Source: Silvanigrella paludirubra (GTDB lineage: Bacteria; Bdellovibrionota_B; Oligoflexia; Silvanigrellales; Silvanigrellaceae). From it: a stretch of DNA of 64,000 bases. Positions 41,908 to 49,623 of the stretch are shown here, one piece after another. The position numbers and the translations under genes were made by a program. Position 1 is the stretch's first letter; each line of letters begins with the position of its first letter. The stretch lies in the NCBI RefSeq assembly GCF_009208775.1, contig NZ_WFLM01000007.1, forward strand, positions 1 to 64,000. The letters are read 5' to 3'. Under the pieces are notes generated by a model that saw only the letters and a list, made by a program, of their open reading frames with translations, ran no database searches and was not told the origin of the DNA.

Positions 41908-42020
41908 TTAAACCCCTTTCCGCCTGCTTTAATAATCGGAAAGGTTTACAAATTGCTTAATTACAAGAAAATTTCTAGTTTTGTTAATGACAATTTGCTG
42001 ACTTTTTATGAAAGGTGACA

Positions 42021-43754
42021 ATGTCTCAGCTTTATACGCTTCCAGAAAGAAAAAAAAGAATTTTTATCGATGAAAAATTTAACCCTTTAGATAAAAACGA
42101 TGTTCGTCATTTATTAGCAAGGCTTTCTACTGAAATCCCTTTCGATTTTAAAAGTGCTGCAAATTGGTATGGACTTTTTCATGAAGCCTCCTGTGCCATA
42201 TCAGAAGCGCATACTATTTTAGAATTAAATTTAAGTTTTAATATTAGTGATATTGTAGCTGAAAAAAAATTAGTTGAATTTGAAGAAAATATTTTATCCC
42301 AGCTATTGAATATAAGAAGTGAATTAATGGATACCTACATGACTTCACCTTGGCGCAATTCAATGCACTTATATGATAATGATAGAATTATTAAAGATTT
42401 AAATATTAGAAGAAAATATACTTCAACAGCAATATCAAAGCTTCAAATTGAAGAAAATCAATTAATCAGAGATTATAAAAAATTTTCACACTCTGCAAAA
42501 ACTTTATTTGAGGGAAGAACAACTCCGGTTTCTGTTGTGATAGGAAAATTAAATGATAATGATCCTTATACAAGAAAGTCCGCTTTTTTAACATATTGGA
42601 ACTTTGTTAAAGATAATGAAGAAAAGTATCAAGAAATATTTGAAAAGCTTTTAATCAATCGAAAAGAACAAGCTGCAACTGTTCAGGCAGATGATTATAC
42701 CGATATTGCTTTTGCAGAACTTGGTCGAATGGACTATGGGAAAGAAGATTGTGCTGAATTTAGAAATTCAATTTATCACGAGGTTATTCCTGTTGTAAAA
42801 GACTTATCTATTCGTCAAAAAGAATCTTTAAAATCAGATTGCATAGCGCCATGGGATATATCAATTTGGCCAGATCTTATGCCTGAAAAACTTCCTGCAA
42901 ATGGAAACTTAAATCATTTAATTTCTTCAATGCAAAATATTACATCTAAAATTCATCCTTCTTTTGGTAAATTATTTAATGAGATGAGGAAAAATAATTT
43001 AATAGATATTTCTCCAAGAAAAGGAAAAGCCCCTGGAGCTTTTTGTGTTACTTTTCAGGAAAGTGGTTATCCTTTTGTCTTTGCAAACTTTGGTGGTAAT
43101 TTTAGAGATGCAATGACTTTTATTCATGAGTTTGGTCATGCCATTCATGGTTATGCTGTTTCAAATATTGATAATGTATTATTGCGGCATCCAGGTTTTG
43201 AATTTTGTGAGGTAGCAAGCATTGGTTTAGAACTTTTAGCAAGCCCTTTTTACTCTGATCTGTGGGTTAATAAGAAGGACTCTAATAAAGCTTTATCTTT
43301 TCAACTTTTTCATATGCTAAATTTTTGGCCATTTATGGCAATGATGGATGAATGGCAACATAAAATATATTCGTCTAAAGAAATTCCAACTTCCGAACAA
43401 AGAAATAAAATTTGGCGCGATGTTTCTAAAAAATATAGGCCACAGGTAAATTGGGATGGCTATGAAGATATTGAGGAGCTTGGTTGGTTAAGTCGTCCTC
43501 ATATTTTTACTTCTCCTTTTTATTATATTGATTATGGAATTGCTCAATCAGGAGCTTTACAACTATGGAAAAAAAGCAAAAGTAATTATAATCAAGCTGT
43601 CTTAAATTATATTTCAGGATTGAGTCTTGGATCACAAAAATCATTACAAGGTTTGTTTGAAGCAACAGGATTGAAATTCGATTTTAGTAGAAAAAGTTTG
43701 AAAGATCTTTGTCATGAAATACAAACGGAAATTATAAAAATTTGTGGTGAGTAA
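42021..43754 (+). CDS. M3 family oligoendopeptidase (PepF-like)
   Basis: A cytoplasmic zinc metallopeptidase of 578 residues that would cleave short peptides. The zinc site HEFGH at about 369-373 in FIHEFGHAIHGYA is the M3 signature, with the third ligand expected about 28 residues later in GFEFCEVASIGLELLA. I place the start at ATG 42021 because AAAGGTG lies just before it; a GTG two codons upstream overlaps that binding site. Length fits oligoendopeptidase F. No signal peptide is present. Confidence 0.9.
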   Translation: MSQLYTLPERKKRIFIDEKFNPLDKNDVRHLLARLSTEIPFDFKSAANWYGLFHEASCAISEAHTILELNLSFNISDIVAEKKLVEFEENILSQLLNIRSELMDTYMTSPWRNSMHLYDNDRIIKDLNIRRKYTSTAISKLQIEENQLIRDYKKFSHSAKTLFEGRTTPVSVVIGKLNDNDPYTRKSAFLTYWNFVKDNEEKYQEIFEKLLINRKEQAATVQADDYTDIAFAELGRMDYGKEDCAEFRNSIYHEVIPVVKDLSIRQKESLKSDCIAPWDISIWPDLMPEKLPANGNLNHLISSMQNITSKIHPSFGKLFNEMRKNNLIDISPRKGKAPGAFCVTFQESGYPFVFANFGGNFRDAMTFIHEFGHAIHGYAVSNIDNVLLRHPGFEFCEVASIGLELLASPFYSDLWVNKKDSNKALSFQLFHMLNFWPFMAMMDEWQHKIYSSKEIPTSEQRNKIWRDVSKKYRPQVNWDGYEDIEELGWLSRPHIFTSPFYYIDYGIAQSGALQLWKKSKSNYNQAVLNYISGLSLGSQKSLQGLFEATGLKFDFSRKSLKDLCHEIQTEIIKICGE

Positions 43755-43923
43755 AATTAAAATTTTTATATTTCTGTTAATTAACAATTAAAAATTGTAT
43801 GTAATAATATCATATAAAATCAAATAATTTATATTTAATTTGCTATAATAAATAAAAAAATATAATTAATTTTAATACAAATATTAATTTAATTTGTATT
43901 AATTATTTAAATTGAGGGAAAAA

Positions 43924-46086
43924 ATGAATAATATTTTAATTAATAAGATTAGAATAAGTCTTGATTTTGTAAAAAAAATAGGTTTGATAATTATTTTTAT
44001 TCAAGAAGGTGCTGCACTATCTGTAAATAGTGCAGGGAATTATTACTACCCTGAATTTTACAGGCATATGAATTATCCTCCTCATTTTCAATTTGTAAAT
44101 AATTATATTCCTGTTACGGTAATTGATTCAAAATTTGCTCCGCTGTCTGAATTAAATGTGATCCAAACTTATTATCATACTAACTATAATGCGGAGGATT
44201 TAAATTATTTATTTAGTTTGCATGGAACCGCTATGGCTTCTATTATTGGTTCAAAATATTTTAATAATGGGAATGTTTCTTTTTCAGGCTTATATCCAAA
44301 TGTGAATCTTATAAATCGAATTGCATTCCCTAATTATAATAGTGGAGCATCTATTTATGAAGCTGCTAGTGAAGCTATTTTTACTGAGAAAGAGCCAATT
44401 ATTAATATTTCTGCTGTAGATAAAGGTGTTAAAAATGCAACGGAATGGAATGAATTATTAATTAAGACAGGAAAAAACGATAAAGTATTAATTATTGCAT
44501 CTGTGGGAAATGATGGTCGAGATATAAATCTCACTTTACCAGAAGATCAATATTGGCCTGCAGCCTATAAACCAAAAAGAAATAAAGATAAGCTTTATGA
44601 TCCTGTTATTCGTGTTGCAGGGTTGTCTTATGAAAATAACGTACCAGCTATTTACAGAACACGAACAGGAGGCTCGAGGTATGGTGCAGGACGTGTTGAT
44701 ATTGGAGCTCCTGGCCATAATATTTCTTTTTTAACTGGAGATCGTGAAATTAAAGTAGGTAATGGAACATCTGAAGCTGCAGCGATTGTTTCTTCGATTA
44801 TTGCTATAATGAGAAATTGTAAACCAAATGCAACAGCAAAAGAAATTAAAGATATTTTATTAGAGACGGCCGACCGTTATGATCATTTATCTACAGGAAT
44901 AACAAATGGAAGAGTAATTAATGCACAAAGTGCAATAGACCGTGTCTGCCTAAAAGAAGATTATCAAACAGAAGCATCAATGACATATTCTTATGAAGCC
45001 ACTGATCAAGTTCAACAAAATGTGATTTTGTATAAAAATGATTTACATTCTAATGAATTTTCCAATATTTTGGTAAGTTGGAAAATAACGATTTCAAATG
45101 CTGGCTATCATAATTATTCTTTGACTGATTTTTCAGGATTGAAAAATTATCAAGCAAAATTTGGAGTAGCTAAAGCGAATGATGAAATTTCCTATTATTT
45201 TACAGATTCTGGTCAAATTGTAACTACAGCTGGAAATAGAAATTCGTTACCTCTTTGTTTAACTGCTTCTGACCCAAATTCAGCTTCTTGGCAAAATATT
45301 GGATTTAGACCTTGTGATAATTCTTATCAAAATTATCAAAAATGGGATCTTGATTTTATTCCTGATCAAGTTAATTCCTATGATTCATTTGTTAACTTTA
45401 ATATAAAATTGAAAGTATCTAATACTTGTTTACGTATGAAAAATAATAATTTTAATTGGGGAAGCTTATTTTTATCGCATTGCAATGAGTATGATCAAGA
45501 AAATTATTTATTAAAACTTAAATTTACTCCTTCAGAAAATGGGAGGGCAAAAATTCAAGAAGTTGATTTAAATTATCATAAGCTGAAAGTAGGTAGCCAA
45601 TTTGTTGCTAGTGATGATAATAATTATGCAGGGCTTTTTAACTTCTCTGAATTTAAATTTAGATATGACGCAGTAACAATGAGGTTAATCGGTTATAATG
45701 CAAATGAAGTAAACCACAATAAGGCAATCTGTTTATACAAAAAAAATGGAGAATACTTTAAAATAGATCATATTGAAGATTTAAAAAATTCTTATTCCTA
45801 TTTAGAATTAAAAGAATGCAATGAAAATGTTCTTCCAAATGAACAATTTTATTTAGTTACGAAATCACCACAAAATCAGAATGAGTTTAAAATATTTTCT
45901 CTTTTAGAAAAAAGCACCCCCGAATCTTTTTCAAATCTATTTAAAAGTTCTTATGAAAATGATTTGACAAATCCTGCGAATACGCTTTGTACGGGAAGCC
46001 ATCAAAATTATCTTTGGGTAGGTGCTTGTGATAGATTCGTTATTCACAAATGGAATGAAGAAGTTTTTTTCCATTGGAGTTATTAG
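43924..46086 (+). CDS. Secreted subtilisin-like (S8) peptidase with a lectin-like C-terminal tail
   Basis: A 720-residue exported protein. The catalytic triad is visible: D68 (VIDSKFAP), H100 (LHGTAMAS) and S283 (GNGTSEAAA), with oxyanion N196 (SVGNDG). The peptidase domain ends at about residue 330. The rest, about 390 residues, has repeated Cys/Trp patterns such as LPLCLTASDPNS and NTCLRMKNNN with FLSHCNEYDQENY, which resemble ricin-type beta-trefoil repeats (CL-x...-x-C...Q-x-W). I place the start at ATG 43924, since GAGGGAA lies just upstream; a TTG at 43912 would include it. The signal peptide is about residues 1-30. Confidence 0.84.
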   Translation: MNNILINKIRISLDFVKKIGLIIIFIQEGAALSVNSAGNYYYPEFYRHMNYPPHFQFVNNYIPVTVIDSKFAPLSELNVIQTYYHTNYNAEDLNYLFSLHGTAMASIIGSKYFNNGNVSFSGLYPNVNLINRIAFPNYNSGASIYEAASEAIFTEKEPIINISAVDKGVKNATEWNELLIKTGKNDKVLIIASVGNDGRDINLTLPEDQYWPAAYKPKRNKDKLYDPVIRVAGLSYENNVPAIYRTRTGGSRYGAGRVDIGAPGHNISFLTGDREIKVGNGTSEAAAIVSSIIAIMRNCKPNATAKEIKDILLETADRYDHLSTGITNGRVINAQSAIDRVCLKEDYQTEASMTYSYEATDQVQQNVILYKNDLHSNEFSNILVSWKITISNAGYHNYSLTDFSGLKNYQAKFGVAKANDEISYYFTDSGQIVTTAGNRNSLPLCLTASDPNSASWQNIGFRPCDNSYQNYQKWDLDFIPDQVNSYDSFVNFNIKLKVSNTCLRMKNNNFNWGSLFLSHCNEYDQENYLLKLKFTPSENGRAKIQEVDLNYHKLKVGSQFVASDDNNYAGLFNFSEFKFRYDAVTMRLIGYNANEVNHNKAICLYKKNGEYFKIDHIEDLKNSYSYLELKECNENVLPNEQFYLVTKSPQNQNEFKIFSLLEKSTPESFSNLFKSSYENDLTNPANTLCTGSHQNYLWVGACDRFVIHKWNEEVFFHWSY

Positions 46087-46121
46087 CAATTATCAACAGT
46101 TTTTTTTAAAAGGGAACTTTC

Positions 46122-46385
46122 TTGTCTTGGATACTTTATATCATTCAAACAAAATCAGGAAAGCTTTATACTGGAATTACGACAAATTTAGAGAGGCGCT
46201 TTAAAGAGCATTGTTCAAGTAAGAAGGGAGCTTCTTTTTTTAATTTTTCAGAACCCGATGTGATTTTGTATCAAGAGAGTCATATAAATCGATCAGAAGC
46301 TTCAAAGAGAGAGTATCACATCAAAAAAATGACCAAACAACAGAAATTAAATTTGATAATACAAAGCCAAATGAAAAGAAGTTAA
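46122..46385 (+). CDS. GIY-YIG nuclease family protein (UPF0213/YhbQ-like)
   Basis: An 87-residue protein with the GIY-YIG core: YIIQTKSGKLYTGIT contains the two Y-I-x..Y-x-G parts, followed by the conserved Arg in NLERRFKEH and a Glu-containing helix at EASKREYHIKKM. Members of this small family are uncharacterised, single-domain putative nucleases. The start is a TTG at 46122, with AAAAGGGA at about 46108-46115 as ribosome binding site; the only ATGs in this frame lie downstream inside the domain. It follows the subtilase gene by 35 bases in the same direction. Confidence 0.85.
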   Translation: MSWILYIIQTKSGKLYTGITTNLERRFKEHCSSKKGASFFNFSEPDVILYQESHINRSEASKREYHIKKMTKQQKLNLIIQSQMKRS

Positions 46386-46478: not shown

Positions 46479-46594
46479 TATAAGTGTTCATTTCATTGAG
46501 GAAAAAAGCGAACACATTCTAATGAAAAACATTTACTGGAGTTAAAGTGTTCCATTATAATAAAACGAGATAATTAAGACTGCTAATATGAAAA

Positions 46595-46921
46595 TTATTC
46601 ATCCTCGTCTTCATCGTCAAAGTCGTCATCATCATCGTCATCATAATCATCATCATCGTCGTCATAATCATCGTCATCGTATTCATCGTCTTCGTCTAAC
46701 TCATCATCATATTCTTCATCTTCATCATAATCATCATAGTCGTCTTCATCATCATCAAAATCATCTTCGTCATCATCGTATTCATCTTCATCATCGAAGT
46801 CTTCGTCATCATCATCAAAGTCTTCATCTTCTTCTTCAGCTTCAGCTGCTTTACCCATATCAAGGGGGGGCATAGATTGTTTAAAAAATTGCTCATTACT
46901 GTTTTTAGCGAAAAGAACCAT
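46595..46921 (-). CDS. Extremely acidic small protein (Asp/Glu tail with spaced aromatics)
   Basis: A 108-residue protein of unknown family. Residues 1-28 are an ordinary mixed sequence (MVLFAKNSNEQFFKQSMPP at the start). Residues ~29-108 contain only Asp, Glu, Phe and Tyr, apart from a single Leu at 75, with an aromatic every three to seven residues. CTGGAGG just upstream of the ATG is a strong ribosome binding site, so this is a real gene rather than a repeat artefact. The N-terminus lacks the Cys motif of FYDLN-acid proteins. Net charge is strongly negative; disordered or DNA-mimic/ion-binding roles are guesses. The antisense frame is a His/Arg-rich shadow. Confidence 0.75.
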   Translation of the reverse strand: MVLFAKNSNEQFFKQSMPPLDMGKAAEAEEEDEDFDDDDEDFDDEDEYDDDEDDFDDDEDDYDDYDEDEEYDDELDEDDEYDDDDYDDDDDDYDDDDDDDFDDEDEDE

Positions 46922-47103
46922 CAGAACCTCCAGAAATAGATCAAAAATTGTGTCACTTATATATACTTTATTTTAAAAAGCAACTGAGATGTAACCTAAG
47001 ATTACATACTACAAAAAAATGTAATCAAATCTTTATTCACAGTGCAAGATCTAGATTCATTTTTATGCTGATTTTAAAAAATCTCCTTTCGCTTTCGTAA
47101 TTT

Positions 47104-49329: not shown

Positions 49330-49420
49330 TGGCGGAGAGAGAGGGATTCGAACCCTCGTTACGGTTTTAGCGTAAACACGATTTCCAATCGTGCTCCTTC
49401 AGCCACTCGGACATCTCTCC
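49330..49420 (-). tRNA. tRNA-Ser (anticodon GGA)
   Basis: Minus-strand reading gives the acceptor stem GGAGAGA/TCTCTCC with discriminator G and encoded CCA. The anticodon stem-loop CACGA-TTGGAAA-TCGTG gives anticodon GGA, reading Ser UCC/UCU codons. A long variable arm (TTTACGCTAAAACCGTAA) identifies a class II tRNA, and GGTTCGAATCC is the T loop. It lies 24 bases upstream of ffs on the same strand. Confidence 0.96.
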
Positions 49421-49489
49421 ACTTGGAAGTAATTCCGTACCTGACACTCAAGGAAAATGCAAGTGTCTTTGCTCAAAAAAATAAAGTTC

Positions 49490-49518
49490 TTGACCTTATT
49501 ACGAAATTGCACTATGAG
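49490..49518 (+). promoter_or_regulatory. Sigma-70-type promoter for rplU-rpmA
   Basis: TTGACC (49490-49495) and TATGAG (49513-49518) are separated by 17 bases, matching the consensus at five and four of six positions. Transcription would start near 49525, giving a leader of about 100 bases before rplU. The tRNA-Ser promoter must lie on the other strand in the same gap. Confidence 0.6.
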
Positions 49519-49578
49519 CTAGCTTCCGACTCTTGTTGAGCCGTGTTTATGGCGTGGTAGCGCTTACCTAAGAACGAT

Positions 49579-49599
49579 GTGTTTCAATAATTGAAACAC
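49579..49599 (+). promoter_or_regulatory. Perfect hairpin in the rplU leader
   Basis: GTGTTTCAAT and ATTGAAACAC (10 bases each) flank a single A, forming an exact palindromic stem-loop about 25 bases before the rplU GTG start. No U-run follows, so it is not a terminator. It could be a ribosomal-protein (L21) feedback site or a DNA operator; neither is shown. Confidence 0.45.
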
Positions 49600-49623
49600 T
49601 AAAAGCGTATAAGGAAATCTGTT

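Follow-up and report, generated by a model that had tools for sequence, protein, structure and literature searches.

DSS1/Sem1, a small, free acidic–aromatic protein, mimics DNA in its dealings with RPA. In replication, the C-terminal tip of SSB is a short acidic–aromatic interaction motif, present once on a folded carrier, that acts through the carboxylate of its terminal Phe. FYDLN_acid proteins (PF09538) are small bacterial proteins that join an acidic tail to a defining Cys-containing N-terminus. The C-terminal region of the RNA polymerase delta subunit (RpoE) of Firmicutes is a disordered, acidic polyanion (83 residues, net charge −47) that dislodges nucleic acid from a basic channel of RNA polymerase (PMC7749165). 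The acidic domain of APLF requires its aromatic anchors, and its acids reproduce the contacts made by DNA (PMC9328677). Competition of D/E repeats with nucleic acids has been described mostly in eukaryotes (PMC10250230). In bacteria, long D/E runs are less common than in eukaryotes and are difficult for the ribosome to make (PMC9718836). D/E runs placed early in an open reading frame destabilise ribosomes in bacteria and eukaryotes, an effect that a longer preceding chain counteracts (PMC9718836, PMC11282234).

Here we compare these systems with a gene for a highly acidic protein in a window of 64,000 nucleotides from Silvanigrella paludirubra (contig NZ_WFLM01000007.1, positions 1 to 64,000), whose genome comprises 3.93 Mb in 30 contigs. 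The features of the locus are:

46595..46921, minus strand: gene for the 108-aa acidic protein (ATG at 46921, stop codon TAA at 46597–46595), assigned by translation and by syntenic orthologues in 13 further genomes
46844..46921, minus strand: non-acidic N-terminal leader, residues 1–26; in the family its length is kept (24–31 aa) and its sequence is not
46598..46843, minus strand: acidic tail, residues 27–108, with D/E at 69 of 82 positions and 12 evenly spaced hydrophobic residues (F, Y and one L)
46928..46932, minus strand: Shine–Dalgarno sequence GGAGG, part of the conserved start context GGAGGTTCTGATGGT
47019..47048, minus strand: promoter-like element CTTGC-N16-TGATTACAT, 127 nt upstream of the ATG and the sole exact match in this genome
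47104..48993, minus strand: dnaX (DNA polymerase III gamma/tau), the invariant upstream neighbour, assigned by Pfam and synteny

The protein has a net charge of −68 and its tail is 84% D/E; translation agrees with a preliminary description, made from the letters alone, in which residues 29–108 comprise D, E, F and Y with a single Leu. That description placed the locus correctly and left out its minus-strand orientation. The strong GGAGG ribosome site that it reported is present as TGGAGGTTCTG-ATG, and the same site precedes the orthologues. A His/Arg-rich open reading frame on the plus strand (46588–46875) overlaps the gene and is a mechanical mirror of its GAN codons; antisense frames opposite the acidic gene are long in relatives too, though not consistently. 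The window protein showed no sequence relative in Pfam, NCBIfam, PHROGs or PDB at the thresholds used, and no viral relative was confirmed in IMG/VR. Its AlphaFold model is unstructured (mean pLDDT 58.8, pTM 0.12), which, coming from a single-sequence run, is weak evidence of disorder; the 26-residue N-terminus is without predicted structure and has no Pfam domain.

Set beside the described systems, the protein resembles delta in having a long, strongly acidic and predicted disordered tail, but the delta tail is anchored by a folded N-terminal domain, whereas the acidic protein has none, is more highly charged and neighbours dnaX; lacking the folded domain, it is not a delta subunit. With APLF and the acidic histone chaperones it shares an acidic disordered chain in which aromatics may act as anchors; APLF, in contrast, is eukaryotic and binds core histones, and no PF00808 protein exceeded the cut-off when 21 class genomes were searched for a histone partner. 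DSS1/Sem1 is likewise free, small and acidic–aromatic, but it is eukaryotic, contains Trp, carries a much lower charge and has other folded partners. The preliminary description had set FYDLN_acid aside, and rightly: the Cys-containing N-terminus that defines this family is absent, with no Cys in the window protein, no N-terminal Cys pairs accompanying a FYDLN motif, no Cys pairs in the orthologues and no Pfam or NCBIfam match to the FYDLN_acid profile. PF09538 itself had no member in 15 class genomes, while the control genome, Caulobacter, was positive. Compared with the SSB tip, the protein has some 12 internal hydrophobics and an acidic terminus in place of one motif ending in Phe, and without a terminal Phe it does not qualify as a strict analogue of that tip. 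By analogy, it would work most like the delta tail or the acidic chaperones; what is new is that such a polyanion occurs across a bacterial order as a protein in its own right, with no folded domain. The family carries no annotation in the libraries searched.

Searches of 56 genomes with the N-terminus alone, the route to orthologues named in the preliminary description, gave matches at E<0.02 only in two Spirobacillus genomes; orthologues were therefore traced by synteny with dnaX. DnaX was sought in 14 relatives and the DNA downstream was read; dnaX was found in 13. The acidic open reading frame starts 134–289 nt after dnaX in all 13 and, with the window, in 14 of 14 Silvanigrellales, representing five genera of one family (13 genomes) and one genome of a second family (G014). 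The window genome and its GTDB-genus mates, which include Fluviispira multicolorata (G006) and Spirobacillus cienkowskii (G004), are placed in the order Silvanigrellales, class Oligoflexia (PMC12321486). Other families of the class contributed 31 dnaX regions, some of them cut by contig ends, and none showed a comparable acidic frame. A family profile matched once per genome and had no match beyond the order; since it missed the known members G009 and G014, the profile does not prove that the gene is absent from other places in those genomes. The acidic frame is a real gene of the order Silvanigrellales, new and single-copy. Orthologues thus exist by position while the N-terminal sequence is not conserved across genera, so an unconserved N-terminus fails as a test of the gene's reality. 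The linkage to dnaX may reflect simple inheritance and only hints at replication.

The gene is probably transcribed independently. The sequence CTTGC-N16-TGnTTAnnT lies 57–130 nt before the ATG in 13 of 13 family members, with its halves exactly 16 nt apart although the flanking sequence is not alignable; it is absent from the second-family genome G014. This promoter-like element resembles a −35/extended −10 pair, differs from the adjacent rplU promoter-like sequence and is putatively the gene's own promoter. A stricter form, sought in eight genomes, occurred once in six, twice in G010 and not in G016; it precedes the acidic gene in every family member tested and has two other exact matches elsewhere, and a backward-read control of the search gave none. 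A regulon search with the element returned essentially the acidic gene alone; the element being near-unique in each genome tested, the regulon gives no hint of function. The second exact copy in G010, CTTGC-N16-TGRTTACMT (G010:C3:262836-262865), lies just before a lipoprotein-like ferrochelatase/HemH-like gene and is possibly a second target or a chance match. The start context GGAGGTTCTGATGGT is conserved in the genus, a strong ribosome site is found in all orthologues, and an intrinsic terminator follows the stop codon in two relatives. Structured RNA or a riboswitch upstream was rejected, with no Rfam match above the gathering score and folding no better than that of shuffles (z +1.3); snoRNA matches there were attributed to chance, from the box-C-like GATGATGA.

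Turning to what is conserved within the protein, net charge lies between −68 and −79 in 12 of the 14 orthologues (−52 and −60 in the others), D/E make up 76–89% of the tail, and sequence and length vary. Hydrophobics recur about every 6 residues, more evenly than if they were scattered at random over the same span (p≤0.005 in 10 of the 14 orthologues, with an eleventh at 0.027, close genome pairs not being independent); evenness was not significant in G005, G013 and G014. In the window protein the gaps between them are 7, 6, 7, 7, 3, 6, 4, 6, 5, 7 and 8 (mean 6.0, sd 1.41) against an sd of 4.85 for random placement (p<0.0002, 5000 trials), an evenness beyond chance that recurs in relatives. 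Part of this regularity could stem from duplicated short tail units, such as DEDDYDD in G002/G003. Together with the unstructured model, these statistics support the disordered polyanionic chain with regularly spaced aromatics first proposed from the window alone. The identity of the hydrophobics shifts from F/Y in AT-rich genomes to F/L/Y/V in GC-richer ones; Ser, Thr, Gly and Ala are rare in the tails, and the non-acidic positions are nearly always F, Y, L, V or I.

Between close strains, the tail differs by third-position substitutions, exchanges of D and E and whole-codon indels, and the N-terminus is identical (G002/G003, G004/G007). The tails of G002 and G003 differ by 29 third-position and 3 first- or second-position changes, counted on a protein-guided alignment of low-complexity sequence that is biased towards third-position changes. 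At greater divergence the N-terminus is free to change, and 19 of 26 N-terminal codons are non-synonymous between the window genome and G003. A weak MV[LF]...EQ pattern persists within the GTDB genus; N-termini from different genera show no sequence relationship, and length alone is kept. Such a changing sequence argues against a conserved binding module, which the preliminary description had suggested its first 28 residues could be. Non-acidic N-termini of 24–31 residues occur in 13 of 14 orthologues; the exceptions to the pattern are G014, with only 6 residues before the tail, and G009, with DDE at residue 12. Selection would appear to keep bulk properties, namely a net charge near −70, about 80 residues of acidic tail and a hydrophobic about every 6, and not sequence.

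We propose, at a probability of roughly 0.4, that the protein is a soluble disordered polyanion which stands in for nucleic acid towards a basic partner. On a nucleic-acid-binding protein, the flexible acidic chain would vie with DNA or RNA for the basic surface, with the spaced F/Y/L residues as weak anchors, and the partner would thereby be chaperoned or freed from non-productive binding, in the manner of the delta tail, the APLF acidic domain and DSS1. We infer both the mimicry and disorder in the cell; the mimic is favoured because its anatomy parallels the delta tail and the APLF acidic domain. Rather than docking, the N-terminal 24–31 residues probably serve as a spacer, which would fill the ribosome exit tunnel (30–40 aa) before the acidic run is made and so protect against intrinsic ribosome destabilization. 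This role is supported by an N-terminus kept in length and not in sequence, together with the literature on D/E runs, and is weakened by the deviating G014 and G009. A fuller form of the proposal is, on balance, rather unlikely: a free-standing mimic without a folded domain, selected for its charge (about −70) and hydrophobic spacing and not for its sequence, and bearing a tunnel-filling N-terminus, that assists, in this order alone, the replisome or some other basic machine acting on nucleic acid. Among candidate interactions, displacement of YbaB was rejected, as YbaB was undetected in all 15 class genomes tested, leaving nothing to displace. An order-wide single-copy gene encoding little but a D/E run and evenly placed hydrophobics offers a good system in which to ask whether a disordered protein of bacteria can have bulk charge and sticker spacing, not sequence, as its conserved function, and by what means the ribosome translates so extreme an acidic chain.

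The alternative that survives best, although we consider it unlikely, is that the tail buffers divalent cations as an intracellular Mg2+/Ca2+ sink, with the convergent CorC/HlyC-type gene as its functional neighbour. The carboxylate density is very high, and a CorC/HlyC-type gene, the ancestral convergent neighbour, adjoins the acidic gene in 9 of 14 order-mates from both families; CorC proteins are reported to guard Salmonella against excess magnesium (PMC12421838). However, in Silvanigrella/Spirobacillus-like genomes this neighbour has been replaced by pepF or others (in the window by pepF together with a subtilase and a GIY-YIG protein), whereas the acidic gene stays with dnaX throughout. 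Ion binding, moreover, needs no evenly spaced aromatics, and the window protein has no EF-hand or Pfam domain.

Improbable in our estimation is that the hydrophobics are translational punctuation, breaking up the acidic runs to spare the ribosome in an otherwise plain polyanion. D/E runs destabilise E. coli ribosomes, and internal runs mostly stay at or below 11 residues, with runs of 16–21 confined to the C-terminal end (five genomes), where the tunnel would already be full. Yet internal runs of 12–15 occur in G005, G010, G012 and G014, and any neutral residue would serve as a breaker, whereas those found are nearly always F, Y, L, V or I.

Less probable again is mimicry of the SSB C-terminal tip, in which DxF/DDF stretches would bind the replisome proteins that recognise SSB, an arrangement that would explain the linkage to dnaX. 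The acidic–aromatic composition recalls MDDDIPF, and the invariant neighbour is a replication gene. However, SSBs in these genomes keep normal tips of the DDDIPF, DDDVPF or DEDVPF type (with the G007 reading frameshifted at its end), so that nothing needs supplying in trans, and all orthologues of the acidic protein end in D or E. The G007 ssb frame ends shifted (HVRWMMTFHFNT), with the expected MDDDIPF apparently in another frame, probably through a sequencing error in the assembly. A further SSB gene of the window genome (G000:C10:52577-52885), its second, encodes a DDIPF tip and is possibly on a mobile element.

A regulatory leader peptide of the MgtL kind, in which ribosome destabilisation by the acidic run would sense Mg2+ and control a downstream gene, is disfavoured to the point of being hardly credible: the D/E content would suit destabilisation, but in the window some 1.8 kb of downstream DNA contains no same-strand frame of at least 60 aa, relatives whose sequence extends far enough past the gene have a convergent gene next, and both the terminators and the RNA folding described above speak against it. 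Weakest of all, a (GAN)n microsatellite open by accident, for which one might cite the low complexity of the DNA and the repeat-unit indels that separate close strains, is for practical purposes refuted by order-wide synteny, an exactly spaced upstream element, a conserved start context and a tail in which nearly every codon still specifies D/E or a hydrophobic (F/Y/L/I/V) across 14 genomes, with 31–57% GC in the sampled regions.

Two further observations concern the surroundings of the gene. In the window, the stretch from pepF (M3 peptidase) to the acidic gene (42015–46385) includes a subtilase-family protein at 43912–46086 with a weak ricin-B-lectin-like region and a GIY-YIG protein at 46122–46385; neither was found near dnaX in the relatives examined. 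Upstream of rplU (window approximately 49350–49620), five congeners share a tRNA-like stretch and, after it, the strictly conserved CTTGACC...TTGCACTATG.GCTAGCTTCCGA, which is probably the rplU promoter.
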